A stretch of DNA of 28,349 nt, taken from positions 1 through 28,349 of the IMG/VR virus record IMGVR_UViG_3300031569_001129. One strand, 5' to 3'. The translations under genes were made by a program, and so were the position numbers. The notes beneath the pieces are model-generated. The model made no database searches, was not told the DNA's origin, and saw only the letters and a list, made by a program, of their open reading frames with translations. Origin of the DNA: a virus. Positions 1 through 21,871 of this stretch are shown here, piece after piece (position 1 is the first letter of the stretch; the number at the start of each line of letters is the position of its first letter).

Positions 1-162
1 AAACAAAATAATTTTATTATATTCCCATCATGGTTATCCCATGGTGTACCACCTAACAGAACCGATAGAGTAAGAAAAGCACTGGGTGTAAATGCTTTAA
101 CTAAAGGTACTTTAGGAGACAGAGAAACAATATCAGAAATAATATTTGGCCGTTATGTATAA
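1..162 (+). CDS. 2OG-Fe(II) oxygenase, C-terminal fragment (cut by window edge)
   Basis: An open frame runs from base 1 to a TAA at 160-162 and encodes the last 53 residues of a protein that begins outside the window. The fragment contains FPSWLSHGVPPNRTDRVR, the C-terminal signature of phage 2OG-Fe(II) oxygenases of the TIGR02466/PF13759 type: a distal iron-binding His followed about 11 residues later by an Arg that would bind the 2-oxoglutarate carboxylate. It aligns with the same region of the next gene (FPSHLTHSVPLNKTDSTR), so the two are tandem paralogs. The stop overlaps the next gene's ATG at 155 by 8 bases, which indicates coupled translation. The substrate cannot be read from this fragment. 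Confidence 0.8.
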   Translation, partial: KQNNFIIFPSWLSHGVPPNRTDRVRKALGVNALTKGTLGDRETISEIIFGRYV

Positions 163-826
163 AGAAAAAATTGAATATGAAGTACTAGAGTTATTCCCAA
201 CCCCAGTTTTCACAACATCTTTACCTCTACAATATGCTGGGATAACAGAATGGTTCTATAAACAAGAAATGTTAGGAGATAGTGATGATAAAGATACCCC
301 GGGAGTAGATGCTACAAATTATGGGGAAAGGTCCAAAAATTCATATATATTAGATGAACCAGAATGTAAAGATTTAAAAACCTTTGTATTAGGTTTATCT
401 AAAACCTATGGAGATATGTTGGGATATGATTATGAAACCTATAAATTTGGACAATCATGGACATCTTACAAACACCCCGGACAACAACATGTCCAACACA
501 CCCACCCTAATAGTTTAATGTCTGGGGTACTTTATTTTGGACAACCTGAAGAAAAAACACCCGCAATTAGATTACATAAAATAGCAAGTGGATTTAATAC
601 TTCATATATTTCTCCTAAAAAAGTACTAGATAAAAGAGAATTAAAGTATGCTTGGGAAGAGTTTAACCTAGAATTTTCACCCGGTTTATTAATTATATTC
701 CCATCCCATTTAACCCATTCAGTTCCACTAAATAAAACAGATTCTACACGTTGTAGTTTAGCATTTAATGTTGTTCCTACAGTAGGGTTTGGGGAAGAAA
801 CTAGCTTAACAGAATTAAAGTTTTAA
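155..826 (+). CDS. 2OG-Fe(II) oxygenase family protein (TIGR02466-like)
   Basis: This 223-residue protein resembles the short 2OG-Fe(II) oxygenases common in marine myoviruses, which hydroxylate unknown substrates using Fe2+, O2 and 2-oxoglutarate. The core is HVQHTHPNSLMSGVLYF (residues 112-128), supplying the proximal iron ligands, and FPSHLTHSVP (182-191) with the distal His188 and Arg199 for 2-oxoglutarate. I chose ATG 155 over the in-frame TTG at 146. ATG 155 gives the usual start just before the conserved LFPTPVF segment and overlaps the upstream stop by only 8 bases. The gene follows a paralog and precedes a glycosyltransferase and a sulfotransferase, so a role in modifying a surface polymer or nucleotide sugar is plausible but inferred. 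Confidence 0.85.
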   Translation: MYKEKIEYEVLELFPTPVFTTSLPLQYAGITEWFYKQEMLGDSDDKDTPGVDATNYGERSKNSYILDEPECKDLKTFVLGLSKTYGDMLGYDYETYKFGQSWTSYKHPGQQHVQHTHPNSLMSGVLYFGQPEEKTPAIRLHKIASGFNTSYISPKKVLDKRELKYAWEEFNLEFSPGLLIIFPSHLTHSVPLNKTDSTRCSLAFNVVPTVGFGEETSLTELKF

Positions 827-827
827 T

Positions 828-1775
828 ATGAATCAAGGATATACCTATCAACCTAAACAAACAGTTACACAACAAAAAAAACTAAAAACTACTACTGGGG
901 AGAAATATTTTATTTGGCATATCCAAGGTGGTTTAGGTAAAAATATTGCGGGTTCAGCTTTAGTAAAAACTATCAAGGAAACCTATCCCGATAGAAAACT
1001 TATTATGGTTACTTCTTTTCCTGAAATATATTTAAACAACCCCCTTGTAGATAGAGTATACCAATTAGGTCAATCCCCATATTTTTACCAAGATTATATT
1101 GAGGGGAAAGATGTAATTATTTCAAAACATGAACCATATCACCAAACAGCACATATTACTAAGGAAAAACATTTATTAGAAAATTGGTGCGATTTAATGG
1201 GGTTAAAATATAATGGTCAATTACCTGTAATTATACCTAACTACCCACAAAGTATGTTACCATCATTGTGGAATAAACCTAAACCTATAATGGTGATTCA
1301 ATCTGGTGGTGGTCCGATGGAAGGTCAAAAACATTCATATTCTTGGACAAGAGATATACCTATAGAGGTAGCACAGCAAATTGCAGATAAGTTTTCTCAA
1401 CAATATCACGTTATCCAAATTACAAGACCAGATGGGTATGAACTAAAAAATGTAGAAAGAATAGACATGAAAATGTCTAATATAGAATTATTTTCACTAT
1501 TAGTTGCATCTAAAAAACGTGTTTTAATTGATTCAAGTTTACAACATGCATCTGCTGCTTTAAATATAAAATCCACAGTACTATGGGTAGGTACTTCACC
1601 TAAAGTATTTGGGTATAAACTACACAACAATATAGAGGCAAATTTACCTAAACGAGCTAATCAACTTATAGGCTCCTATACATTCGACTATCAATTTGAA
1701 AATAACTTACATGAATGCCCCTATATGAATGTAGGGGAAATATTTGATATTAATAATGTGTTAAATAATATATAA
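828..1775 (+). CDS. Glycosyltransferase family 9-like (heptosyltransferase-type) protein
   Basis: This 315-residue protein has the two-Rossmann (GT-B) look of ADP-heptose:LPS heptosyltransferases. Near the N-terminus is HIQGGLGKN (about residues 31-39), followed by alternating hydrophobic strands and the phrase NNPLVDRVYQLG. In the C-terminal half a nucleotide-sugar-site segment reads DSSLQHASAALNIKSTVLWVG, matching the family pattern of an acidic residue, Ser/Gly, then His-Ala-x-Ala. The first 25 residues are a Thr/Gln/Lys-rich leader. The gene starts 2 bases after the oxygenase and overlaps the sulfotransferase by one base (TAATG). It could transfer a sugar to host lipopolysaccharide or to a virion glycan. 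The family call is good; donor and acceptor are unknown. Confidence 0.75.
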   Translation: MNQGYTYQPKQTVTQQKKLKTTTGEKYFIWHIQGGLGKNIAGSALVKTIKETYPDRKLIMVTSFPEIYLNNPLVDRVYQLGQSPYFYQDYIEGKDVIISKHEPYHQTAHITKEKHLLENWCDLMGLKYNGQLPVIIPNYPQSMLPSLWNKPKPIMVIQSGGGPMEGQKHSYSWTRDIPIEVAQQIADKFSQQYHVIQITRPDGYELKNVERIDMKMSNIELFSLLVASKKRVLIDSSLQHASAALNIKSTVLWVGTSPKVFGYKLHNNIEANLPKRANQLIGSYTFDYQFENNLHECPYMNVGEIFDINNVLNNI

Positions 1776-2596
1776 TGAATCAAAAAATATTTTATCAATC
1801 CTCTCTTCCAAGAGCAGGTAGTACCTTACTTCAAAATATAATGGGACAGAATCCATTATTTCATGTTACCCCAACTTCGGGTATGATAGACATGATGTTA
1901 GGAACACGTATTGGATATAATGGGAATACTGAAGCAAAGGCGGGAGATAAAGACAAATGGCGTGAAGGATTTTATGCATATTGTAGAGAAGGATTTAAAG
2001 CCTATGCTCAAGTATTTACAGATAAAACTTATATTTTAGATAAAAATAGAGCATGGGGTTCATATTACAACCTACTTAACGAAATAAACCCAAACCCTAA
2101 AATTGTATTTATGGTTAGGGATTTAAAAGCTGTGTTTGCTTCTATGGAAAAAAAATTTCGAGCTAATCCTGATATGGATGGGGGAGAAATTAATAATGAA
2201 ACCTTAGCTGGAATTACAACTCAAAAACGTATAGAAATGTGGGCGGGGGGTCATCCTATAGGATATGCTGTACAAAAATTACAACAATCTATTTTAGATA
2301 AAACAGCTCAAAATTTCTTATTTATTAGATACGAGGACCTATGCACTAACCCAGAACCACAGTTAGATTCTATTTACAATTTCTTTGGGTTAGAACCATT
2401 TAAACATAATTTCCAGCATATACCCCAAATAACCGTTGAAGATGATACTGTACATGGTATTTACGGTGACCATACAATTAGAAATACATTAGGTATGTTA
2501 CCCGATGATTCTAAAGAAGTATTAGGAGAAAATACATGTAAAGAGATATATAATAACTTTAAATGGTATTTTGATACCTTCAATTATAATTTATGA
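1775..2596 (+). CDS. Sulfotransferase family protein (PAPS-dependent)
   Basis: This 273-residue protein is predicted to transfer a sulfuryl group from PAPS to an acceptor. The N-terminus carries the 5'-phosphosulfate-binding loop LPRAGSTLLQ (residues 11-20). The 3'-phosphate-binding motif is seen in KIVFMVRDLKAVFASM (about 109-124), with Arg115 and Ser123. Later, FLFIRYEDLCTNPEPQLDSI is a typical sulfotransferase helix/strand with the YEDL signature. Length and motif spacing fit soluble bacterial sulfotransferases. The start ATG overlaps the previous stop by one base and its own TGA overlaps the next ATG (ATGA at 2593-2596). The next gene is an APS kinase, which makes PAPS, so donor synthesis and use appear to be co-expressed. 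The acceptor is probably a glycan, given the adjacent glycosyltransferase, but that is inference. Confidence 0.85.
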   Translation: MNQKIFYQSSLPRAGSTLLQNIMGQNPLFHVTPTSGMIDMMLGTRIGYNGNTEAKAGDKDKWREGFYAYCREGFKAYAQVFTDKTYILDKNRAWGSYYNLLNEINPNPKIVFMVRDLKAVFASMEKKFRANPDMDGGEINNETLAGITTQKRIEMWAGGHPIGYAVQKLQQSILDKTAQNFLFIRYEDLCTNPEPQLDSIYNFFGLEPFKHNFQHIPQITVEDDTVHGIYGDHTIRNTLGMLPDDSKEVLGENTCKEIYNNFKWYFDTFNYNL

Positions 2597-3036
2597 TATA
2601 CTGGTTTACAGGACAGCCTGCACATGGAAAAACTATATTAGCAAAAAAATTAAGCTACTGGTTAACCGAAAATAAACACACCCTTCCTTTTATGATAGAC
2701 GGGGATGATATGCGAGAATTATTTTCAAATAAAGACTATTCAATTAAAGGGAGAGTAGAAAATGTAGGAACAGCTCAACGAATAGCTCACTATTTACATA
2801 ATCAAGGTAAGGATGTAATTGTAGCACTTGTATCACCTTATATAGACCAACGAGAAGATTTTAAAGCCTTATTAGGTGACAATATTAAAGAAATTTATGT
2901 CCACACTTTAGAATCAAGAGAACGTGACCACTTTAAGGCAATTTCATATATTCCACCTCAAGATACCTTTATTGACATAGACACTACTAATGATTCACCA
3001 GAAGAATCACTTAAAAAAATAATAAATGAAATATAG
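2593..3036 (+). CDS. cysC: Adenylylsulfate (APS) kinase, CysC-like
   Basis: This 147-residue P-loop kinase matches APS kinase, which phosphorylates adenylylsulfate to PAPS. Walker A is GQPAHGKT at residues 7-14. The family motif DGDDMR (36-41) corresponds to DGDNVR of CysC. Segments RVENVGTAQRIAHYL and VALVSPYIDQRED (77-89) correspond to the RxENxxRxGE and FISPYRxDR regions, including the Ser of SPY. It is shorter than the usual ~200 residues but retains the core. It is coupled by ATGA to the sulfotransferase upstream and overlaps the nucleotidyltransferase downstream by 11 bases. I see no ATP sulfurylase of standard type in the window, so APS may come from the host or from an unrecognised partner. 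The alternative, a polynucleotide-kinase-like P-loop enzyme, fits less well. Confidence 0.85.
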   Translation: MIYWFTGQPAHGKTILAKKLSYWLTENKHTLPFMIDGDDMRELFSNKDYSIKGRVENVGTAQRIAHYLHNQGKDVIVALVSPYIDQREDFKALLGDNIKEIYVHTLESRERDHFKAISYIPPQDTFIDIDTTNDSPEESLKKIINEI

Positions 3037-3379
3037 CTTATTTATAGGCAGATGGCAACCTTTACATGATGGGCATTTATGGTTAATCAACCAACGTTTA
3101 AAAGAAGGTAAAAATGTTTGTTTAGCTATTCGAGATGTTGAGCCTAACGATAATCAACCTTGGACTGCTAAAGAAATCGAAAAAATGGTACATGAAGGCC
3201 CTCTCAAAGATTTAATAGCTGATAAAAAAGTAATCACTACTATTATCCCCGACATTGAATCAGTTAACTACGGTAGAGGAGTAGGATATGAAGTAATAGA
3301 ACACGTTCCACCAGAAGAAATAGGTGATATATCTGCTACTAAAATTAGAGAACAAATGAGAAAAGATGGTAAGTTATAA
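3026..3379 (+). CDS. Small nucleotidyltransferase (NadM/cytidylyltransferase-like)
   Basis: This 117-residue protein has the HxGH nucleotidyltransferase fold: GRWQPLHDGH at residues 8-17 and the C-terminal ISATKIR motif (102-108), which binds the nucleotide triphosphate. The middle segment, with PWTAKEIEKMV, resembles the NPFTxxERxxMI region of archaeal-type NMN adenylyltransferases. An adenylyltransferase acting on a mononucleotide is therefore the best guess. It is short compared with NadM (~170 residues). It sits inside an operon of sulfate-activation genes, with 11- and 14-base overlaps on either side. A role in nucleotide activation linked to sulfate is conceivable, but nothing in the sequence shows ATP sulfurylase activity. 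Confidence 0.75.
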   Translation: MKYSLFIGRWQPLHDGHLWLINQRLKEGKNVCLAIRDVEPNDNQPWTAKEIEKMVHEGPLKDLIADKKVITTIIPDIESVNYGRGVGYEVIEHVPPEEIGDISATKIREQMRKDGKL

Positions 3380-3575
3380 AAGACACTTATTAAAAACTAT
3401 AACTTGGCGCATAGTAGGTACCATAGATACCGTTATATTATCTGGGGTTTTAACAGGTAGTTGGGTTATGGGGCTTACAATAGGTGGAGTTGAAATAATA
3501 ACTAAAATGGTATTATATTTTTTCCATGAAAGAGCATGGTATAAGTTTTCTTCATTTGGTTTAAAAAAGAAATAA
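3366..3575 (+). CDS. DUF2061 small membrane protein
   Basis: This 69-residue protein matches DUF2061: an N-terminal KRHLLKTITWRIVGTIDT, a hydrophobic segment (about 20-34), a second one with GGVEIITKMVLYF (about 37-53), and the signature FHERAW near the end. Two membrane passes are expected in the inner membrane. The function is unknown. From memory, DUF2061 genes often neighbour sulfate-activation genes in Bacteroidetes and related bacteria, which fits its place here directly after APS kinase and the nucleotidyltransferase. The ATG overlaps the previous gene by 14 bases, so translation is coupled. A role in sulfate supply or in anchoring the PAPS machinery is only a context inference. Confidence 0.85.
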   Translation: MVSYKRHLLKTITWRIVGTIDTVILSGVLTGSWVMGLTIGGVEIITKMVLYFFHERAWYKFSSFGLKKK

Positions 3576-3584
3576 TATTTATCA
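3575..3584 (+). promoter_or_regulatory. Class II promoter candidate (ATATTTATCA)
   Basis: The AT-rich box begins 23 bases before the ATG at 3598 and overlaps the end of the DUF2061 gene. It matches the ATATTTATAA box found at similar distance before seven other genes, with C in place of A at position 9. There is no TTTG element 20 bases upstream. It is the weakest member of the set. Confidence 0.4.
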
Positions 3585-3597
3585 TTAAACACTTTAT

Positions 3598-4080
3598 ATG
3601 AGTTGGAAATATAAATCCCACGAAATAAGTGACATAACTCAATTCCCCAACAAAACATTTGGTTTTGTTTATATCAACACACACATACCATCTGGTAAAT
3701 CTTATATTGGAAAAAAGGTATTATTCCACAATAAGAAACAGAAGTTAGGGAAAAAAGAGTTAGCTAACCTACAAGGTGTAGTTGGCCGTCGCCCTTCATA
3801 CAAATTAATAGTTAAGGAATCAGATTGGTTAAATTATCATGGTTCCCAAGCTGAAATTAAACAATTACTTTTAGAAGGTAAAAAAGATGAATTTGAACGT
3901 ACTATATTAAAAATGTGTCCTGATAAAAAATCAATGACATACTTTGAAGTTAAATATCAAATGATATATCAAGTACTAGAAAAACCAGATGAGTTTTTTA
4001 ATGACAACATTTTGGGTAAATTTTTTACAAAAGATTTTAAGGAAATTGACTTTGAAGACTTTTTGAAATCCCAAAAATAA
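3598..4080 (+). CDS. GIY-YIG-like putative endonuclease
   Basis: This 160-residue protein has a GIY-YIG-type core near the N-terminus: GFVY at residues 22-25 and SYIGKK at 35-40, separated by the usual 10 residues. Downstream come a basic stretch (HNKKQKLGKK) and SDWLNYHGSQAEI, which I recall from Seg/Hef-like phage endonucleases and related T4-like hypothetical proteins. Such enzymes nick or cut DNA as homing or repair nucleases. The gene lies alone between the surface module and the primase, with its own upstream promoter-like box, a location that would suit a free-standing homing endonuclease. The catalytic Arg and Glu cannot be assigned with certainty, so activity is not assured. Confidence 0.6.
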   Translation: MSWKYKSHEISDITQFPNKTFGFVYINTHIPSGKSYIGKKVLFHNKKQKLGKKELANLQGVVGRRPSYKLIVKESDWLNYHGSQAEIKQLLLEGKKDEFERTILKMCPDKKSMTYFEVKYQMIYQVLEKPDEFFNDNILGKFFTKDFKEIDFEDFLKSQK

Positions 4081-4093
4081 GTTCGTATATTAC
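4062..4093 (+). promoter_or_regulatory. Class I promoter (TTTG-N20-TATATTAC)
   Basis: TTTG lies at 4062-4065, a 20-base spacer ending in TTCG at 4066-4085, and TATATTAC at 4086-4093. This is the Bacteroidetes-type -33/-7 layout shared exactly with three other sites in the window. It overlaps the end of the upstream gene. The primase ATG at 4099 begins only six bases after the -7 box, so the transcript would be leaderless or nearly so. Confidence 0.6.
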
Positions 4094-4098
4094 CATTT

Positions 4099-5028
4099 AT
4101 GGTAAATCAGCTATTAGTTCATTTGGTAAACTCCGTATTGGGGTCAGGCAAACAGACAGCACGTAACAACTATGCTTACCACTGTCCTTTTTGCCATCAC
4201 CAAAAACCTAAAATGGAGGTAAACCTAACAGAAAACCGTGAGGGTAAAAACCCATGGCATTGTTGGGTTTGCGATAAAAAAGGTAATACTTTATATCAAT
4301 TATTTAGACTAATGAAAGCCCCTGCTGAAAAAACTACAGAGGCTAAATCCCTAATTTCTTCTTCACGTTCTATAAAAACCACCAAAGTTGAATATAGTAT
4401 AGCATTACCTGACGAATATATAGCCCTATCTACCGGTAATTTAAGCGATATATCTGCTAGACACGCGATGGCATACTTAAAACGTAGAAACATTAGTAAA
4501 TACGATATTCTAAAGTATAATATGGGTTATTGTAAAAATGGTAAGTATAAAAATATGATTATACTCCCAACTTATGATGAAGATGGTAGTTTAAATTATT
4601 TCACAGGCCGTTCATTTGAAAAAGACCCCTATGTAAAATATCGCAATCCCGAAGCATCAAGAGATATTATTCCTAATGAGCATTTGATTAATTGGGAAAT
4701 TCCCATTATATTATGTGAAGGAATATTTGATGCAATTGCTATTAAGCGAAACGCTATACCATTGTTGGGTAAAAATATCCAAAGTAACTTAATGAAACGT
4801 ATAGTTACTTCAATCGTAGATAAAATTTATGTTGCATTAGATAAAGATGCAATTAAACAAGCTTTACGCTTTTGCGAAATGTTAATGGCAGAAGGTAAAG
4901 AAGTATATCTTGTTGATTTACAAGATAAAGACCCAAGTGAGATGGGCTTCGTTAATTTCACTAAATTAATACAAACAACTTTTCCATTAACCTATTCAGG
5001 TTTAATGGAAAGAAAATTATCCTTATGA
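4099..5028 (+). CDS. DNA primase, zinc-ribbon plus TOPRIM (T4 gp61/DnaG-like)
   Basis: This 309-residue protein should make RNA primers for lagging-strand synthesis with the phage helicase. An N-terminal zinc-binding domain has Cys29-x2-Cys32 and Cys55-x2-Cys58, with HCPFCHH and WHCWVCDKKGN. A TOPRIM domain follows. The acidic residue is Glu207 in ILCEGIFDAIAI, and the DxD pair is Asp248/Asp250 in VALDKD. Between them GRSF...YVKYRNP is a typical primase core phrase. Length is close to T4 gp61. It is coupled to the downstream exonuclease by ATGA at 5025-5028. A class I promoter sits immediately upstream, so expression is probably early or middle and host-polymerase dependent. Starting at TTG 4123 would leave a longer leader but is less usual. 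Confidence 0.88.
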   Translation: MVNQLLVHLVNSVLGSGKQTARNNYAYHCPFCHHQKPKMEVNLTENREGKNPWHCWVCDKKGNTLYQLFRLMKAPAEKTTEAKSLISSSRSIKTTKVEYSIALPDEYIALSTGNLSDISARHAMAYLKRRNISKYDILKYNMGYCKNGKYKNMIILPTYDEDGSLNYFTGRSFEKDPYVKYRNPEASRDIIPNEHLINWEIPIILCEGIFDAIAIKRNAIPLLGKNIQSNLMKRIVTSIVDKIYVALDKDAIKQALRFCEMLMAEGKEVYLVDLQDKDPSEMGFVNFTKLIQTTFPLTYSGLMERKLSL

Positions 5029-5804
5029 TTAAAAAATCATACCAAAGATTACTTGAAATTTCAGATGATTACCAACAAGTTACGATGCCCGACTCCCGGT
5101 ATTATCGCAGAAATGGAAACTATTATCCTTCCGTTACCCATGTATTAAGTTCTTACCCTAAAGGTAAGTTTTTTGAAGATTGGTTAAAAAAAGTAGGATA
5201 TAGTGCTGAATGGATTGTTAAAAAAGCAGCTGAAGAAGGCACCCTTGTTCATGAAATGATTGAAGATTGGTTAAATGGTAAAGAACTTAAGTTTTTACAT
5301 GATAACGGTAATCCTAAAATGCCCCCTCATGTGTGGCAGATGTTTTTACGTTTTGTAGATTTTTGGGAAACATATAACCCAACATTAATAGAAGCAGAAG
5401 TACATCTCTTTTCAGATGAAATAAAAGTTGCAGGGACCTGTGATTTGGTATGTGAGTTAGAAATAGATGGGAAAATGGAACGTTGGATTATCGATTTTAA
5501 AACATCTAATCACTTACAAACAACGTATGATTTACAGGGAGCGATATATGCTCAATGTTATGAAGAATGTTATGGTAAAAAAATTGATAGAGTTGGTGTT
5601 TTATGGTTAAAATCTAAATCAAGAGGTGAAGATAAGACTGGAAAACGTTTAAAAGGTAAAAATTGGGAAGTATATGAATCCCCTCGTACACAGAAACAAA
5701 ATATAGAAATATTTAACCATGTTAAGGCATTGTTTGATATTGAAAACCCAAAACCAACCCCATATACCAACACCTTCCAAACTATATCTAAAAGAAAAGT
5801 ATAA
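5025..5804 (+). CDS. PD-(D/E)XK exonuclease, RecB/Cas4-like
   Basis: This 259-residue nuclease has the RecB-family motif series: GTLVHE with His76, Glu125 in EAEVHLF, Asp140 in VAGTCD, the core IIDFKTS with Asp157 and Lys159, and the QxxxY motif (Gln171-Tyr175) in LQGAIYAQ. These residues bind divalent metal and cut DNA, usually as a 5'-3' single-strand exonuclease in recombination, repair or host DNA breakdown. There are no Cys clusters, so it lacks the Fe-S domain of Cas4 proper. It is the last gene of the replication pair and is followed by a hairpin terminator 14 bases downstream. Confidence 0.88.
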   Translation: MIKKSYQRLLEISDDYQQVTMPDSRYYRRNGNYYPSVTHVLSSYPKGKFFEDWLKKVGYSAEWIVKKAAEEGTLVHEMIEDWLNGKELKFLHDNGNPKMPPHVWQMFLRFVDFWETYNPTLIEAEVHLFSDEIKVAGTCDLVCELEIDGKMERWIIDFKTSNHLQTTYDLQGAIYAQCYEECYGKKIDRVGVLWLKSKSRGEDKTGKRLKGKNWEVYESPRTQKQNIEIFNHVKALFDIENPKPTPYTNTFQTISKRKV

Positions 5805-5818
5805 TTTTTTAAAAATAA

Positions 5819-5851
5819 CCGCGTCTCTATTTGGTTACGCGGATTTTTTTT
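5819..5851 (+). terminator. Rho-independent terminator
   Basis: CCGCGT (5819-5824) pairs with ACGCGG (5837-5842) around a 12-base loop, followed by A and eight T residues (5844-5851). It ends the primase-exonuclease transcript. The loop contains the TTTG (5830-5833) of the next promoter, so terminator and promoter are interleaved. Confidence 0.85.
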
Positions 5852-5861
5852 CGTATATTTA
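5830..5861 (+). promoter_or_regulatory. Class I promoter (TTTG-N20-TATATTTA)
   Basis: TTTG at 5830-5833, a 20-base spacer ending TTCG, and TATATTTA at 5854-5861. The -33-like element lies inside the terminator loop. It serves the gene at 5907, giving a leader of roughly 40 bases, and may be used together with the class II box at 5884. Confidence 0.65.
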
Positions 5862-5883
5862 TATTATAATAAAAATAAAGGTT

Positions 5884-5893
5884 ATATTTATAA
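5884..5893 (+). promoter_or_regulatory. Class II promoter candidate (ATATTTATAA)
   Basis: ATATTTATAA begins 23 bases before the ATG at 5907, with no TTTG at the class I distance. It follows a class I promoter by about 30 bases, so this gene may have tandem promoters used at different times. Confidence 0.5.
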
Positions 5894-5906
5894 TAAACTA
5901 TTTTCT

Positions 5907-6692
5907 ATGATTAGTTTAATGCAATTACTAAATGAATCCCAAGGTAGCCCAAAAGCAATTATCTTAGCAGGTGCCCCAGGTGCTGGTAAAGGGTACGTTT
6001 TAAAAGGATTAGATTTAGGTGGTTTAAAAGTAATGAATATTGATAGTATATTTATTGATAAGCTAAAAACAGCAAACGTTACTTTAGACTTAAAAAATGC
6101 AACCCCTGAAGAAAGAAGCAAGCAAGCTAAACAAATGGCAGCCGCCAACAAGGAATTTAAAGGTGACATACAATCAACAATAGAAGGTAAAGAATCATTT
6201 ATATTAGATGGAACTGCAGCTTCATTAAAGCAAACCTCAGAATTAAAAATCCAATTAGAAGAAGCAGGATACGATGTATTTATGCTTTATGTTTATACTG
6301 ATTTAGAACGTTCATTATCTCAAAACAATGATAGATTTGAAAAATCAGGAGGTGAAGATAGAAGTTTAGCACCCGCTATTGTAATGCGTACTTGGATGAA
6401 TGTAACTAAAAATTATGAACCTTATAGTGATATGTTTGGGAATAATTTTGCATTAGTAGCCAACACATTAGAAGATAAAATGGATAATGTAGAAGATATT
6501 ATTAAAAAATATTTAGATCCATTTAGACCCCAAGGAACAAAACCCAAAACACCAGCTCAAAAAGAAAAAAGTGATAAATCATATGCGGAAATGAAAACTG
6601 ACCTTAATAGCCTATTAAAAGGCGATTTTACCTCAGATAGTTCATCTAAAGAAGAAGCACAATCTAAAATATCACAATTCCTCAATTCATGA
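5907..6692 (+). CDS. Zeta-toxin-like P-loop kinase, possibly virion-packaged
   Basis: This 261-residue protein has a Walker A motif GAPGAGKG at residues 22-29, the nearby NIDSIF strand with Asp46, and FILDGTAAS with Asp101. This is the pattern of zeta-toxin/AAA_33-type small-molecule kinases, which phosphorylate sugars, nucleotides or UDP-sugars. The C-terminal third is a charged, Ser/Lys-rich tail after DPFRPQGTKPKTPAQ. The first 11 residues, MISLMQLLNES, resemble the capsid-targeting leaders of T4 internal proteins (for example MKTYQEFIAEA) and include an L-x-E/S site of the kind cut by the prohead protease. Packaging in the head is therefore a reasonable inference. It is coupled by ATGA to the multidomain gene downstream. 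Confidence 0.7.
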   Translation: MISLMQLLNESQGSPKAIILAGAPGAGKGYVLKGLDLGGLKVMNIDSIFIDKLKTANVTLDLKNATPEERSKQAKQMAAANKEFKGDIQSTIEGKESFILDGTAASLKQTSELKIQLEEAGYDVFMLYVYTDLERSLSQNNDRFEKSGGEDRSLAPAIVMRTWMNVTKNYEPYSDMFGNNFALVANTLEDKMDNVEDIIKKYLDPFRPQGTKPKTPAQKEKSDKSYAEMKTDLNSLLKGDFTSDSSSKEEAQSKISQFLNS

Positions 6693-8982: not shown

Positions 8983-8992
8983 ATATTTATAC
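8983..8992 (+). promoter_or_regulatory. Class II promoter candidate (ATATTTATAC)
   Basis: The box lies in the 81-base gap between 8931 and 9013 and begins 30 bases before the ATG at 9013. There is no class I upstream element. It is the nearest promoter candidate upstream of the tyrosinase cassette, so that cassette may be transcribed from here. Confidence 0.5.
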
Positions 8993-9012: not shown

Positions 9013-10113
9013 ATGAGAGATAATTTTAATGTACACGAGTGGAGAATAAGTAAAATTCGTGAAGAAAATGAACAGAATATTAAAAACCTTAAAAAAGGTG
9101 ACCGTGTAAGATTTAAAGCTGATTCTAAAGTTATTTGGAATATTCTAGGTGTTCAAGGTGATACTTACCGTATTAACCAACAAGGTGAAAGAAGCATATC
9201 TTATCAACCTATAGCTTTCCTTCATAATATGATTTCAACTGGTAAGGCATCTATAGACCAAAATGAATCCCTAAACTTAGAAGAATTACAAGACTTTGAT
9301 AATAAAGGATATAAAGTAGCAAAAGAACTTATTGATAAATTAAGAGCAACTACATTTAAAAAATTCAATGATGATGAGTTAGAAGAATTTAGAAAAACAA
9401 TAGCTAATGCTTTCGATTTTGATCTAAGGGAATCTATAAGTGAAAACTTTGATAAAGTCTCAGGTGGTTATCCCTATAGAATGGAAGGTAATAAAGCAGT
9501 TATTACTGAACCTATGGATGATGCCACTAAAGAACGTATGATGAAACGAGCTGAGAAATATGGGTATAGTGCTTCACCCAATATGGCAGGAGGAGTAACT
9601 ATTAGAAAAGATGGCTTAAAAGAAGATAATTTACTTAAACAAGATGCATTATCCCCCGCAGAATATCAAAATGCTAAAAAATTAAAAGGATTTGATCCTA
9701 AAAATTATATGTGGGATAAAAAACAAGATCTCCATTTAATTAGAAAAATGAATGAAGACAAAGGTACTTTAAACAAAATAGCAGATATACTAGGTGATAA
9801 ATTTGATGATTTAAATTTTGATGTAAACGAAAAAGCAGATCGTATTGACGTTCGTGGTTCACAACAAGATTTAGCTAACTTTGGAGACAAATCACATGGT
9901 AAAAAAATATATGGTTACGAAGTATTTGCTACAGATGACGATGATAGAGGAGAAATAGTTCGTATCGTTAAATCCGATAAATTAAAAGAAGGCGACGGTT
10001 TATGGGCAAATATTAGAGCAAAGAAAGCTCGAGGTGAAAAACCGGCTCGTAAAGGAAGTAAAGCCTACAAAATTGCTAAAAAAGCAGGAGATAAAATTAA
10101 CAAAGAAAAATAA
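9013..10113 (+). CDS. Phage protein with basic C-terminal tail, probable virion or DNA-associated protein
   Basis: I do not recognise the whole 366-residue protein. The N-terminal 90 residues include GDRVRFKADS and an SH3-like run of strands. The middle is charged and helical, with one region (GYPYRMEGNKAVITEPMDD) likely forming a small alpha/beta fold. The C-terminal 42 residues are strongly basic, with DGLWANIRAKKARGEKPARK (residues 328-347). I recall this phrase at the ends of many marine phage structural or head proteins, where such tails probably contact DNA. LRES and ISEN near residue 140 resemble prohead-protease sites. It follows a class II promoter candidate and precedes the lipoprotein cassette by 9 bases. 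Confidence 0.7.
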   Translation: MRDNFNVHEWRISKIREENEQNIKNLKKGDRVRFKADSKVIWNILGVQGDTYRINQQGERSISYQPIAFLHNMISTGKASIDQNESLNLEELQDFDNKGYKVAKELIDKLRATTFKKFNDDELEEFRKTIANAFDFDLRESISENFDKVSGGYPYRMEGNKAVITEPMDDATKERMMKRAEKYGYSASPNMAGGVTIRKDGLKEDNLLKQDALSPAEYQNAKKLKGFDPKNYMWDKKQDLHLIRKMNEDKGTLNKIADILGDKFDDLNFDVNEKADRIDVRGSQQDLANFGDKSHGKKIYGYEVFATDDDDRGEIVRIVKSDKLKEGDGLWANIRAKKARGEKPARKGSKAYKIAKKAGDKINKEK

Positions 10114-10122
10114 ATTAAGATT

Positions 10123-10614
10123 ATGAAAAAAATATTATTATCAATTATTGCAACTGTAATGTTATTTGGTTGCGCATCTAAAACAACCACTAAAAAAGTA
10201 GAATCTGATCCCGTAACTGTAACAATGAAAGTTGTAAATAGTACTGATGCTGATTTTGTAGTTAATTGTTCTTGGTGTGTAGACAAAAAAGATCAAACTA
10301 CTATAGTTAAAGCCGGTGAAAGTTATTTATTACAATCTAATACACACGATGCAAGTGGTACAGTATTTACTATCCACCCTAAACCACCAACTACAGTTAC
10401 TCAACCCGACCCTAGTGAGGGAACTTTTCAAATGACATATGGTTATTGGAATGGAGCTGCTCATGTCACTTGTGATGATATTTGCAATAATTCAAACCCA
10501 ACAGAAAAAATACATTACACAGGATGTAACTGGGTATTTGATGCCGAGTTTGAAGGCGGAAATAAAGGAATAAACAGTACTGTAACATTTACAACCAAAG
10601 CGTTTACTAAATAA
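10123..10614 (+). CDS. Small Cys-containing lipoprotein, unknown function
   Basis: This 163-residue protein begins with a clear lipoprotein signal, MKKILLSIIATVMLFGCASK, with lipobox LFGC and lipidated Cys17. The mature part is a predicted beta-rich domain (VTVTMKVVNSTDADFVVNCS) with further Cys residues in NCSWCVD, TCDDICNN and TGCNW. These could form disulfides or bind metal in the periplasm or at the surface. It ends 15 bases before the tyrosinase start, on the same strand and with the same kind of signal peptide, so it may assist that enzyme, for example in copper delivery. No homologous family comes to mind, and the role is inference from context only. Confidence 0.75.
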   Translation: MKKILLSIIATVMLFGCASKTTTKKVESDPVTVTMKVVNSTDADFVVNCSWCVDKKDQTTIVKAGESYLLQSNTHDASGTVFTIHPKPPTTVTQPDPSEGTFQMTYGYWNGAAHVTCDDICNNSNPTEKIHYTGCNWVFDAEFEGGNKGINSTVTFTTKAFTK

Positions 10615-10629
10615 ATAAATTAAAAAAAA

Positions 10630-11994
10630 ATGAAAAAACTATTATTACTATTATTAGTAACTTTAGTAGGTTGTCAAACTACTCCTGAAGTTACAAAACG
10701 AATTCGTTACAATGCTAATAGCCCTGAGGCTGTAGTACATTTAGAAGCTATGGATAAAGCTTTTGGTATCATGAAAACATTAGATTGTGATGACCCAAGA
10801 AGCTGGTACTACCAAGGTAGTATACACTGGATACCAGATAGTATTCCAAATAATCAATTATGTAATTCATACTCTTCATCAGAAACCGATTTAAAACTTG
10901 CTTGGGATAACTGTACACATTCAGAGGCACATGCTGAAGAAGTACATTTTTTAGCTTGGCATAGAATTTATATTTATCATTTAGAAGAAATTATACGTGA
11001 ATTATCTGGTATGGATGAGTTTGCTTTACCTTATTGGGCGTATACAAATAATAATCTTGCAGATAAAATAATGCCTGAAATATTTAGGGATTCAACCTCT
11101 AATTTATTTGAACCCGCTCGTTGGGCTAAGTTAAATCAAGGTTTACCTATTAACCCTAAAACAGCAGGTTCTGCTTTAGATTTAACGGTATTAATGCAGT
11201 ATACTGATTATAAACTATTTAATTCTAATGCTGATGCAGCTCCTCATGGGTTTATGCATGGTTATATAGGTAATGCTAATAAACTTAGAAGCCCGGGGTA
11301 TGATAATATAATTACTCAAGATAATACTAGAACAGGTTTAATGGGGATTGTACCAACAGCCGGATTTGATCCTATATTTTGGATGCACCATTCAAACATT
11401 GATAGAATTTATCAACAGTGGACTAATTCTAAAAACGGAACTTTAATTACTGAGCAAATGTTAGACAACCCAGCTTGGGGTTATGTTTTCTTTAATGGAA
11501 AAGGTAAAAAAGTAGAATATACTATGGGTAGGTTAAGAAAAGTACTTTATTCCCTAGATTATAATTTTGATGATACTAAAGTATACGAAAAACCGGGTGT
11601 TGTACCTAAGGTAAGAGATATTATATTACAAGATGAAATAATACCTAACCCTTCAATTCAAGTATCTAGTACATTAGTGTCCTTAGGTTCACTTGAAACA
11701 CCTAAAGAATATAAAGGTAAAAGACAAATTATTGAAATTACAGTAGCATTCAATGTTGAACCTGCTGGTATTTGGACAGTATCTGACAATGAAAATACAC
11801 TGGGGTACATGACATTTTTTGGAGCAACACACCATGCGGGACATTCAGATATGTCAAATATGCCGGGTATGAAAACTACAAAAACATTTAAATATGAAGT
11901 AGCTACATCTGATTTACATAATTTAACAATTAAAGAAAATGGTATAAGCGAATCAGAATTTGAAGTAATTAAATTAGATTTATATAGCCTATGA
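10630..11994 (+). CDS. Tyrosinase / polyphenol oxidase, lipoprotein-anchored
   Basis: This 454-residue protein is a type-3 copper enzyme that should oxidise phenols such as tyrosine to o-quinones with O2. A lipoprotein signal (LVGC, Cys15) would anchor it in the envelope. The CuA site is formed by His66 (SIHWIP), His101 and His111 within HAEEVHFLAWHRIYIYHLEE, close to the PROSITE tyrosinase pattern H-x(5)-F-L-x-W-H-R. The CuB site is His206/His210 (APHGFMHG) and His254 in DPIFWMHHSNID, matching D-P-x-F-W-x(2)-H-x(3)-D. After about residue 325 a beta domain resembles the C-terminal domain of polyphenol oxidases, with a His/Met-rich loop (THHAGHSDMSNMPGM). All six copper ligands are present, so an active enzyme is likely. 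It overlaps the Tyr-rich lipoprotein gene by ATGA. Tyrosinases are very unusual in phages. Confidence 0.92.
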   Translation: MKKLLLLLLVTLVGCQTTPEVTKRIRYNANSPEAVVHLEAMDKAFGIMKTLDCDDPRSWYYQGSIHWIPDSIPNNQLCNSYSSSETDLKLAWDNCTHSEAHAEEVHFLAWHRIYIYHLEEIIRELSGMDEFALPYWAYTNNNLADKIMPEIFRDSTSNLFEPARWAKLNQGLPINPKTAGSALDLTVLMQYTDYKLFNSNADAAPHGFMHGYIGNANKLRSPGYDNIITQDNTRTGLMGIVPTAGFDPIFWMHHSNIDRIYQQWTNSKNGTLITEQMLDNPAWGYVFFNGKGKKVEYTMGRLRKVLYSLDYNFDDTKVYEKPGVVPKVRDIILQDEIIPNPSIQVSSTLVSLGSLETPKEYKGKRQIIEITVAFNVEPAGIWTVSDNENTLGYMTFFGATHHAGHSDMSNMPGMKTTKTFKYEVATSDLHNLTIKENGISESEFEVIKLDLYSL

Positions 11995-12521
11995 AGTATG
12001 TAATTATATTATTATCGTTTTTAACTATAGGCTGTGGTTCTTATACTACTACCTCGTATCGCCCTAAAATTCAAAGCATACTAGCAATTACTGAGGTTGG
12101 AGATACCATTTCAGTACCTTATAGAGATTTTATTAGAGATAAACATGACACTTATACAAGATTTAACTACAATAATAATTGGTACTGGAACAACTGGAGA
12201 TACGACAATAATTGGAGATGGAATCAGTGGTGGTTATACTCCAACAATGGGTGGGGTAATAATTATTACAATTATAACTCTGGGAGTAATATCCCTTATG
12301 TTAAGTATAAGCAAAAACCAAAACCCGTCTTAACCCCTACACGTCCTAAAATAGATAAACCACGAGTAAGAATAAATAATCCAAGAGGTTCAAATAATAA
12401 TTATAGGACTTCACCACCTCAAAGAAATAATACCCCCTCTAGAACACAAACTACACCCAACGTTCAAACGCGGGTTAACGTAGGTCGTAACTCTAATGGT
12501 GGAAAACGTAATAACCAATAA
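11991..12521 (+). CDS. Tyr/Trp/Asn-rich lipoprotein, candidate tyrosinase substrate
   Basis: This 176-residue protein starts with a lipoprotein-like signal (LLSFLTIGCGS, Cys15). Residues 55-106 are extremely aromatic, with 10 Tyr and 8 Trp among Asn, Arg and Gly, for example NNNWYWNNWRYDNNW. The C-terminal 70 residues are disordered and rich in Pro, Arg, Asn and Thr (PTRPKIDKPRVRINN). No enzymatic domain is visible. The start codon overlaps the tyrosinase stop (ATGA, 11991-11994), so the two are co-translated. A Tyr-rich envelope protein coupled to a tyrosinase suggests that its Tyr residues are converted to DOPA or quinone for cross-linking, as in adhesive proteins, but this is inference. 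An alternative is a generic low-complexity flavobacterial surface lipoprotein. Confidence 0.75.
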   Translation: MKYVIILLSFLTIGCGSYTTTSYRPKIQSILAITEVGDTISVPYRDFIRDKHDTYTRFNYNNNWYWNNWRYDNNWRWNQWWLYSNNGWGNNYYNYNSGSNIPYVKYKQKPKPVLTPTRPKIDKPRVRINNPRGSNNNYRTSPPQRNNTPSRTQTTPNVQTRVNVGRNSNGGKRNNQ

Positions 12522-12528
12522 CCTCCCA

Positions 12529-12538
12529 ATATTTATAA
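12529..12538 (+). promoter_or_regulatory. Class II promoter candidate (ATATTTATAA)
   Basis: ATATTTATAA begins 26 bases before the ATG at 12555, in the 33-base gap after the lipoprotein cassette. It marks the return to the structural-like gene block. No TTTG is seen at the class I distance. Confidence 0.55.
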
Positions 12539-12554
12539 CTAAAAATACATCTTA

Positions 12555-13067
12555 ATGGCTGAATTTAACTATAACGAGTATATAAAAAATAATCCTTTAC
12601 TACAAGAAGAAGTAAAGGAACAATTACTCACCGAATCACAAGAAGTAAGCGAAGAGGCTCCTTCTAAAAAAACAACTAAATCTGAATTAAAAGCAGAAAT
12701 TAAGGAATTAATTTTAGCATCTCTCCAAGAAGAAGAAGTTGAAGAAGGATATGGCAATAAGGATGGTGATAAAGATGATTCACCAACTGAAAAAGAAACC
12801 GAAAAAATGAGGTTTAAAGAAGATGCCAGAACTGATGCTGAAGAAGAAGGATATAAAGATGGGATGGAAGACGAAAAAGAAGATTCTGAAATTGAAGTAG
12901 ATCTTGACCCCGTTGTAGATTCTGGATTATCTAAAGATGAGATGGAAATTCAAAACGCACTTAAAATAGCTTACGATAATGCTCTTGCAATTGGTGATCA
13001 AAAACTAGCAGATCAAATTGGTAATTCAATTACATTCTTTACTAGAACACATATTGTAGAAAGATAA
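12555..13067 (+). CDS. Acidic phage protein with KSELK helix module, probable head-associated protein
   Basis: This 170-residue protein is not recognised as an enzyme. It is strongly acidic and helical, like scaffold or internal head proteins. QLLTESQE (residues 23-30) contains an L-x-E/S prohead-protease-like site. Residues 42-60 contain [19 protein letters not shown], almost repeated at the start of the protein at 23201. A central run of Glu, Asp and Lys includes [15 protein letters not shown], related to [16 protein letters not shown] in the next gene. The C-terminus ([20 protein letters not shown]) is a regular helix. It follows a class II promoter candidate and ends one base before the next ATG. 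Confidence 0.7.
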
Positions 13068-18763: not shown

Positions 18764-21700
18764 ATGAAACATTTTTATCTATTTTTTACTTTACTATTAG
18801 TACTGTCAAGTTGTACTAAGGAGTTTGGTATAAAAACTACATCAATCCCCCCTGAAGGAGGTCAAGTATTTCCACCTGAAGGAACTTATAAGGAAGGGAG
18901 TGTTGTTGTATTAAATGCTGCCCCAAGTAGTGAATATGAATTTGAAAAATGGTCTGGAGACGCTTCAGGTACAGATAAGTCTACGGAAGTTGTTGTTGAT
19001 GGTTTTAAAAACATTAATGCTAACTTTAAATTAAGACAATACGAATTATTACTAAATGTTGTGGGTAATGGCGAGATAACAGAAACTGTTGTTAATACTG
19101 GAAAAGGAACTGATTATGATTCTGGATCCTTAGTTAGATTAGAAGCTGTCCCTGCGTATGGTTATTATTTTAGTAAGTGGTCTATCGATGCTACCGGTGA
19201 AGAAAACCCAATCAATATAACAGTAGACAGACCTAAAAATGTAAGAGCAACCTTTGAAAAACTCTCCTTTGGTTTACAAGTAAACACTTTAAGAAATGGT
19301 AAAGTTATTCAAGAAATAATAAGTACCGGAAAGGGAACTGACTATGAGTTTGGTACTACTGTTAGATTAACTGCATTACCTGAAACTGGATCAGACTTTA
19401 TTAAATGGCAGAAAGGTGATAGGAGTTCTTCCAATAAAAACCCTGTTGATATACTCATAGACAGACCTAAAGAGATAATTTCAATATTTGAGTTCGGACT
19501 ATACAATAAAAGTGTAGGTAAATGGAAGATTAAAAGACCCGCACGAAGTAATAAAGGTATTAATTTCGATGTTTCAAACATAATTTTTAGTAGTGAAGAT
19601 GACCACGAGTTTAAGCTTAACTACTCTGGAGGGCAAATAATTGGTATCTTTGAGGTTACTTCAAATACAACTATATTACTTGAAGGAATAGGAGAACTAT
19701 CTAATGTTCAGATAATAGAAGAAAAAATATCATTTAATATAAAGATTACTAACTTATTTCAATTTGATGTTGAGGGGGATAAATCAGTAACATATAAAGA
19801 AAATGAAATATACATACCCGATCCTATATTTGAACAAACTTTAATAGATACTGGCTATGATGATATTCTTGATGGATATGTAAAAGATTCTATAGTATTA
19901 AGTATTAATGAATTAGATTTAAGTAATAAATTAATAACACAATATAATGGGTTAGAAGAGTTTGTAAATCTTACAAATTTAAATCTTAGTGGAAATGTAA
20001 TAACAGATGTTCCTTTAATCAATCTTAATAAGCTAACGACTCTTAATTTAAGTAACACAGGTTTAACTGAGTTAGATTTATCCTATAATAATCTTATTAC
20101 CTTATTAGACCTTACAGGTAACCCTTTATTAGAATGTGTAAAAGTAAGTTCTCAACTATTTGAACAAATACCTATTGGATGGACTTATGATACTAGTACG
20201 ACATTTGAATTAGAATGTGATTGTCCTACGTTATCACTTATATCTGGACCAGTATCCCAAGAGGTGTGTGATGGGGGGGAAATGCAACCCCTAGTCTTTG
20301 AGTTTGGAGGTACTGACACCACTATAAACGTTGATGATTTAGGATTAGTAACTGACATTTCTAATGGGACATTAACCATATCAGGTACTCCTACTTTTGT
20401 AAGTGATAATTATAGTTTCTCTGTATTTACAAGTGATGGAAAGGAAAACTGTGCTCAAGTATCACAGACTATTACCTTAAATAAAATCGAACTACCTACT
20501 ATAACTTTAGATTCTGGTTCCCTAAATCAATCTTTTTACACTTTCCAATCAATGGTTCCTATTGTAGTTACCATAGGAGGAGGTGCTACCGGTTTAACTT
20601 TTGAGGGACCTGAAGATAGGGATATAACTCAAGTAGGAAATACCTATACAATCCAAGCTAACTTTTCTGAAGTGGGGACCAATAGTGGAACAATAACAAC
20701 TATAAGTGAAGATGGTTGTAATGAAGTTTCACTAACTGCTACAATAACAGTCCTTAATATACCTCCTCCACCAGCAAACACATCATCAGGAGGCTCAACA
20801 TCGGGGAGTACAACGACATCTACCACTTTTACTTGTGAATGCCCAGATGCAACAGTAGGGGATGAAATAACAATAAGTGGGACTGTATATAAAGTTGTAG
20901 ATAATTCAACTATAGGAGGTCAAATAGCAGCAGGGAATTATAATTTATGTACAACGTTAGTGACGAGTATGTATCAACTATTTAAGAATAATACTACATT
21001 TAACTCTGACATCAGTTTTTGGGACACATCTAATGTAACAAATATGCATGGTGTATTTTGGGGAACTTCATCATTCAATCAAGATATCAGTAATTGGGAT
21101 ATGTCAAGTGTTCTAAATACGAATAAGATGTTTGATAGAGCCCATGCTTTTAATCAAGATATTAGTGGTTGGGATGTATCAAATGTGACCAACATGGCAC
21201 TGATGTTCTATGATGCACTTGCATTTAATCAACCCCTTGGTAGTTGGACTGTGTCAAGTGTGACTAGTATGGAACGTATGTTTAGAGGCGCACGTGTTTT
21301 TAATCAAGATATTAGTAGTTGGAATACTTCAAATGTTACTACCATGTCTGCTATGTTTCTAGGCGCATTAGTATTTAATCAAAACATAGGTAGTTGGAAT
21401 ACTTCTAGTGTTACTAATATGTATAGTATGTTTGCTGGTGCATCAGCGTTTAATCAAAGCCTAAATAGTTGGGATGTTAGTAATGTTACTACTATGTGGG
21501 ATATGTTTCAATCCGCTGATAGTTTTAATGGAAACTTAAGTAGTTGGAATACTTCAAGTGTGACTACTATGATGAATATGTTTAAATACGCAAGAAGTTT
21601 CAACCAAGATATTAGTAGTTGGAATGTTAGTAGTGTAACTACTATGGCTGTTATGTTTTTTGAAGCAGATAATTTTAATCAAAATATAGGCAGTTGGAAT

Positions 21701-21871
21701 ACTACAGCGGTTACTGATATGTATTCTATGTTTAATAGTGCAGATGATTTTAACCAAGATTTAACAGGGTGGTGTGTTTCGAATATTACATCTGAACCAA
21801 GTGCTTTTGCAACATCTTCTTCACTTACAAACGCTAACAAACCAATATGGGGAACGTGTCCCGGAGATTAA
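18764..21871 (+). CDS. Giant repeat lipoprotein (InlB-like, LRR, BspA/DUF285)
   Basis: This 1035-residue envelope protein begins with a lipoprotein signal ending LSSC (Cys17). Residues ~22-90, 92-166 and 168-245 are three divergent InlB B-repeat-like domains, each with a Y/DFxKW core and a closing NxxANF or RATF strand. A central beta region precedes a leucine-rich segment (about 350-470) opening with [18 protein letters not shown], an entry phrase typical of flavobacterial LRR proteins. An Ig/cadherin-like stretch and a Ser/Thr/Gly linker follow. Residues 736-1010 are eleven 25-residue BspA/DUF285 repeats with MF...[15 protein letters not shown] character. It is a host-like surface protein, probably for adhesion or receptor masking; use in the virion as a fibre is less likely because of the lipobox. 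It has its own class II promoter candidate. Confidence 0.85.
20969..21793 (+). repeat. Eleven tandem 75-base coding repeats (DUF285 units)
   Basis: Eleven in-frame units of 25 codons encode residues 736-1010 of the lipoprotein. The conserved positions are M..MF....FNQ(D/N)(I/L)(S/G)SW(N/D)(T/V)S(S/N)VT. The DNA copies differ at many sites, so they are old protein repeats rather than a recent expansion, but the matching stretches could still allow slippage or recombination. Confidence 0.9.

Follow-up and report, generated by a model that had tools for sequence, protein, structure and literature searches.

Why does a phage of the T4 type carry a gene for a lipoprotein of the tyrosinase family, and do the two lipoprotein genes on either side of it belong to the same function? 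These questions are raised by three consecutive genes within a 28,349-base IMG/VR record, here referred to as the window. The record contains T4-type genes for portal, terminase, primase and exonuclease. The portal matched Portal_T4 at 1.1e-68 and the TerL matched phrog_2 at 3.1e-51, which confirms the T4-like context proposed in the preliminary description of this DNA. When TerL was compared, 2685 phage records were matched and Flavobacterium phage immuto (vB_FspM_immuto) headed the list with 60% identity. Since this nearest named phage by terminase has a Bacteroidota host, the T4-like phage studied here likely infects Bacteroidota as well. Unlike the record, immuto gave no tyrosinase match.

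An assembly chimera is unlikely, because GC content and codon usage of the tyrosinase gene agree with the rest of the contig, an ATGA overlap joins it to a phage-native gene, and the flanks of the three-gene run are collinear with the sister contig L032 (mostly 64-84% identity).

Accessory enzymes are encoded elsewhere in the window as well. The region 146-6692 contains a 2OG-Fe(II) oxygenase and a sulfotransferase, a kinase and nucleotidyltransferase pair is located at 2593-3036 and 3026-3379, and a zeta-toxin-like kinase at 5907-6692. A fourth phage-encoded lipoprotein of 1035 aa (18764-21871) with divergent InlB B-repeats, a leucine-rich stretch and many DUF285 (BspA-like) repeats was unmatched in about 80 related contigs that have the neighbouring genes. 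Additionally, a short amphipathic N-terminus, which we take to be reminiscent of T4 capsid-targeting sequences, is common to many proteins (9013, 12555 and 23201, and neighbours in L003, L004 and L014).

The run itself is composed of P0002 (10123..10614), a Cys-containing lipoprotein of 163 aa whose fold was not recognised, the tyrosinase-family (type-3 copper) lipoprotein of 454 aa (10630..11994), and P0003 (11991..12521), a Tyr/Trp/Asn-rich lipoprotein of 176 aa, of which L032 has a relative in the corresponding position. All three ORFs are located as described before, on the plus strand, and the reading frames of tyrosinase and P0003 overlap by ATGA. Each N-terminus carries a signal peptide with a lipobox-like Cys (LFGC, LVGC and TIGC in P0002, tyrosinase and P0003, respectively). 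The run occupies a variable site. On its left lies gene 9013 (9013..10113, plus strand), with which the presumed transcription unit begins and which is collinear in L032, and on its right gene 12555 (12555..13067, plus strand), collinear in L032, L041, L048 and L054.

The middle protein is a member of the tyrosinase family. It matched PF00264 (Tyrosinase) at E=8.4e-28 with 98.6 bits against a cut-off of 22.6, and its PDB profile matches were tyrosinases and hemocyanins, down to 5.6e-39. The six copper-ligand His read from the sequence (H66, H97, H111, H206, H210 and H254), already noted in the preliminary description, were invariant in an alignment of 20 sequences. The CuA site (10825..10962, plus strand) comprises H66, H111 and the thioether-type pair C95-T-H97, the spacing of which is that of the Cys-His thioether enzymes found among fungal and molluscan proteins. 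H97 was assigned as HisA2 through the relative L005, which was aligned to the Hahella tyrosinase of known structure, 8b74. The CuB site (11245..11391, plus strand) holds H206, H210 and H254, with G207 at HisB1+1; by alignment, Gly is found at this position in nearly all relatives.

Four positions before HisB1, just ahead of CuB, the phage enzyme has D202 (11233-11235, plus strand), and most phage relatives have Asn according to the alignment and the spacing from HisB1. On the basis of that spacing, this would be the water-keeper position. The Glu water keeper that marks a strict tyrosinase (monophenolase) is thus replaced by Asp202. This Glu is nearly universal among characterised enzymes and its replacement usually cuts activity greatly; furthermore, Gly at HisB1+1 of JrPPO1 raised the diphenolase and lowered the monophenolase activity (PMC11608171). 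Because of the exchange of Glu for Asp202, or for Asn in most relatives, oxidation of diphenols would be likelier than a strong hydroxylation of tyrosine, if the water-keeper position is rightly placed. We therefore name the predicted product of 10630..11994 a tyrosinase-family phenol oxidase rather than a proven tyrosinase.

The fold of the enzyme is that of a latent polyphenol oxidase with a C-terminal lid. An AlphaFold2 model of the 454 aa (pLDDT 83.7, pTM 0.87) shows a C-terminal beta domain placed as in the latent enzymes, and the best full-length Foldseek matches in the PDB were latent phenol oxidases with such a lid (apple 6els, aurone synthase and Hahella 8b74; also 6hqj). A profile of the lid matched the isolated apple PPO lid 6elv/6elt weakly (E 0.005-0.03, with 6elv at 0.005). 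The lid domain (11656..11991, plus strand) carries the invariant F396-F397 at its tip, followed by a His/Met-rich loop HHAGHSDMSNMPGM. The lid of Hahella HcTyr1 is self-cleaving and uses a Phe as placeholder residue (PMC11609597). Since the lid-tip Phe is invariant and the HcTyr1 lid has its Phe placeholder, latency of the phage enzyme is plausible. The corresponding loop is His- or His/Met-rich in the Bacteroidota relatives, and in most phage relatives, namely giant-phage enzymes (e.g. L003, L004, L005 and L014), SCxxGCC is located right after the FFG lid tip. By analogy only, the loop HHAGHSDMSNMPGM might act as a copper-loading element, and SCxxGCC and His-rich loops are possibly alternative elements for this purpose.

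Among known enzymes, latent plant polyphenol oxidase MdPPO1 (6ELS) was the best full-length fold match and has a related lid; it is a chloroplast-targeted plant enzyme with 19% identity to the phage enzyme. HcTyr1 of Hahella sp. CCB MM4 (PDB 8B74) consists of TYR domain and lid and shares the copper ligands where aligned. However, it is a cellular enzyme, about 19% identical when the folds are aligned, and has a shorter HisA2-HisA3 spacing, the phage enzyme having 5 extra residues here. The lipoprotein tyrosinases of Bacteroidota (Mucilaginibacter L020/L021 and Emticicia L022) are 42-44% identical to the phage enzyme over nearly the full length. They share with it the lipobox-like Cys, the six His, the C-T-H pair and the FFG lid tip, but they are cellular genes and lie outside the branch formed by the phage sequences.

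A signal peptide followed by the lipobox LVG-C15 (10630..10674, plus strand) characterises the enzyme as a bacterial lipoprotein, in agreement with the membrane anchoring proposed initially. The lipobox architecture is also present in L003, L004, L007, L016 and the Bacteroidota relatives. In several giant-phage enzymes (L005, L009, L011 and L014) the N-terminus is a hydrophobic helix that lacks the lipobox Cys. Bacteroidetes lipoproteins destined for the surface carry, within positions +2 to +6, a polar or Lys residue followed by two acidic ones (PMC5080379). According to this rule, which was established in Capnocytophaga, Bacteroides and Flavobacterium and might not hold for the actual host, the export signal is absent after the lipobox Cys in all three lipoproteins (C-QTTPEV, C-ASKTTT and C-GSYTTT). 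For this reason a periplasm-facing anchor appears likelier than a position at the cell surface, and the proposed action at the host surface loses ground.

The time of expression was approached by recurrent motifs upstream of genes. The motif TATTTATA, which resembles the T4 late promoter, preceded an ORF start by <=45 nt in 65 of its 101 occurrences on the coding strand of 15 related loci (4.8 expected). The strong late-promoter-like motif ATATTTATAA was found <=45 nt before starts in 52 of 63 cases (3 expected), mostly 20-29 nt ahead of the start codon; it is present at 8984, 12530, 18740, 23177 and 25814 as well as in related loci. Counted on both strands, TATAAATA was not above chance in the 28,349-base window. 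Judged by position upstream of starts, TATTTATA at 8984..8991 (plus strand) heads the presumed unit 9013-P0002-tyrosinase-P0003, and the next such motif at 12530..12537 (plus strand) leads gene 12555. No late-type motif TATTTATA was found before 10123, 10630 or 11991, i.e. inside the three-gene run. Because the motif precedes 9013 and 12555 but none of these three starts, P0002, tyrosinase and P0003 are probably transcribed late and jointly with gene 9013, which is consistent with the late expression suggested before. A second recurrent string TTCGTATATT is located ahead of genes 4099, 17413 and 21939.

The best explanation of the whole, in which our confidence is about even, is that of an accessory phage gene for a type-3 copper phenol oxidase modifying the envelope of the infected cell. 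We infer location, timing, activity and role of the enzyme as follows. Its ancestor would have been a lipoprotein enzyme of Bacteroidota, acquired long ago, and several phage lineages would have retained the gene. As the promoter motifs suggest, it would be transcribed late, in one unit with gene 9013 and the two lipoprotein genes, which are unrelated. The lipobox would lead to export and lipidation by the host lipoprotein machinery and, lacking an export signal, the enzyme would face the periplasm, where copper could be loaded, perhaps aided by the His/Met-rich lid loop. Members of the family oxidise phenols to reactive quinones. Once the lid is opened or cleaved, the enzyme would, according to this chemistry, use O2 to oxidise diphenols to quinones, and perhaps also phenols or tyrosyl groups that are accessible. 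The likeliest benefit would be a modified envelope, in which quinones cross-link either envelope proteins or components of incoming phages, and this reading fits best because the enzyme appears to be anchored and its timing late. The roles proposed initially (cross-linking, a block to superinfection, adhesion or altered receptors) are candidates.

A close rival, which we regard as possible but rather doubtful, is an auxiliary metabolic gene: the enzyme would oxidise or detoxify dissolved phenolics of algal or plant origin and thereby keep the infected host working. The nearest cellular relatives are indeed host lipoprotein enzymes, the active-site features favour diphenols, and lidded Hahella tyrosinases oxidise lignin constituents (PMC11609597). 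However, the gene lies in a late-type unit, when host metabolism counts less, and genes for phenol catabolism were recognised neither in the families of the window nor in nine giant-phage neighbourhoods.

Whether modification of the envelope involves the two neighbours was a question of its own, since the preliminary description had read the run as one cassette. In such a cassette the tyrosinase would cross-link P0003 and P0002 would serve the enzyme, for instance as a copper chaperone, resulting in a surface glue. Adjacency, the ATGA overlap, the Tyr-rich and substrate-like P0003 and the CxxC and CxxxC motifs of P0002 would suit this arrangement, but we consider it improbable, as both lipoproteins were found without the tyrosinase and the tyrosinase without either of them. 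At the same site L032 carries a different 134-aa gene followed by a 63% relative of P0003, and no tyrosinase. Distant Trp/Tyr/Asn-rich lipoproteins are present in the records of L035, L041, L048 and L054, and those of L041, L048 and L054 directly precede the relative of gene 12555. Because of these relatives at the same place without tyrosinase and ahead of gene 12555, P0003 appears to be a resident gene of the phage group. In L116-L121, relatives of P0002 with 83-89% identity are flanked by an nrdB-like and an nrdA-like gene (assigned by reading the gene sequences). Further ones with 74% were located in L122-L123, and all these contigs lack tyrosinase; dN/dS within the P0002 family was 0.11-0.24. 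Furthermore, both P0002 and P0003 were absent from 13 enzyme-bearing records which were re-searched, and a co-occurrence of the three genes elsewhere was looked for and not found. The enzyme is independent of its neighbours, and the cassette was therefore abandoned; by sequence comparison, the three genes seem to have met at a variable site, with the lipoproteins as unrelated neighbours.

Neither P0002 nor P0003 matched a Pfam family. For P0002 there was no significant PDB profile match and the AlphaFold2 model reached a pLDDT of only 34, which argues further against a part in a cassette; a copper chaperone and a membrane-binding beta protein were both considered for it. Superinfection exclusion proteins of the Cor / Llp type, likewise small lipoproteins which phages put into the host envelope, have no catalytic domain. 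P0002 was rejected as a Cor protein, its likeness being at the level of the signal peptide: the match to phrog_1119 covers residues 1-26 only (E=0.0036).

Relatives of the enzyme are carried by other phages. A first scan found two giant-phage relatives, and a profile scan raised the count to 17 other viral contigs with 39-50% identity, near-copies and fragments included; every phage record carrying the tyrosinase gene is metagenomic. Enzyme-bearing records of 253, 299 and 476 kb contain T4-type portal and terminase. In detail, the T4-type portal was present in G002, G003 and G005 (the same family matched none of 14 control genomes) and TerL in G002, G003, G005 and G013. In a 281-kb record neither was seen, but it has neighbouring genes in common with the 476-kb record. 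Three different phage tyrosinase queries had no match among 50,697 GenBank phages, the enzyme had no tyrosinase match in PHROGs, and a BFVD structure search gave partial matches only (TM about 0.2). In the open-access literature searched, a phage tyrosinase was not named, and papers in which the two terms appeared together dealt with other subjects. The enzyme therefore appears to be undescribed in phages, as had been supposed.

Ten phage sequences form one branch (support 97/94, in 100% of bootstrap trees), which adjoins the lipoprotein tyrosinases of Emticicia and Mucilaginibacter. The close full-length family is rare among Bacteroidota: of 395 genomes, 6 matched strongly, including two already known to have it. 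In two close pairs dN/dS was 0.037 (L014/L015) and 0.041 (L014/L010), more distant phage pairs being saturated or nearly so. Given these values of about 0.04, phages keep the gene by purifying selection in the relatives where it is measurable. The values cover phage relatives only; the enzyme at 10630..11994 sits on a long end branch (1.11) and has no near relative. Gene order around the enzyme is conserved in L004/L010/L014, and L003/L005 share divergent neighbours, so that the gene is stably inherited in giant phages. The order is conserved within lineages only, and no common partner gene was found across all phage lineages. The related enzymes thus seem, from their sequences, to be one old viral lineage of host origin, also present in giant phages.

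This bears on the alternative of a host gene picked up recently and functionless in the phage, either transduced or joined during assembly. The 28,349-base record is the sole carrier in its T4-like group, the gene being present in none of 27 related records, as might be expected after such an event. However, the branch made up of phages alone, the purifying selection seen among phage relatives, contig-like codon usage and the native ATGA junction speak against it, and the giant-phage relatives in particular make it very unlikely. Handling of O2 or copper instead of catalysis, by hemocyanin-like O2 binding or copper sequestration, is hardly credible either: it would account for the strong profile similarity to hemocyanins, the missing water-keeper Glu and the His/Met-rich or Cys-rich loop beside the lid tip, but as a whole the enzyme is built like the latent phenol oxidases and Gly at HisB1+1 is compatible with catalysis in known enzymes (PMC11608171).

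Returning to the envelope-modifying phenol oxidase, the separate viral branch, the selection where measurable and the very different genome sizes suggest that oxidative phenol chemistry at the envelope helps phages. Tyrosinases are known from all domains of life. We tentatively propose that phages of Bacteroidota, from T4-sized to giant, may maintain a lineage of copper phenol oxidases of their own, which face the periplasm and use quinone chemistry to remodel the envelope of infected cells. Such a phage-host or phage-phage interaction would be new to description. If true, this would add a new chemical mechanism to the ways in which phages alter the infected cell, and the phage lineage offers exported, possibly latent copper oxidases that are directly testable.
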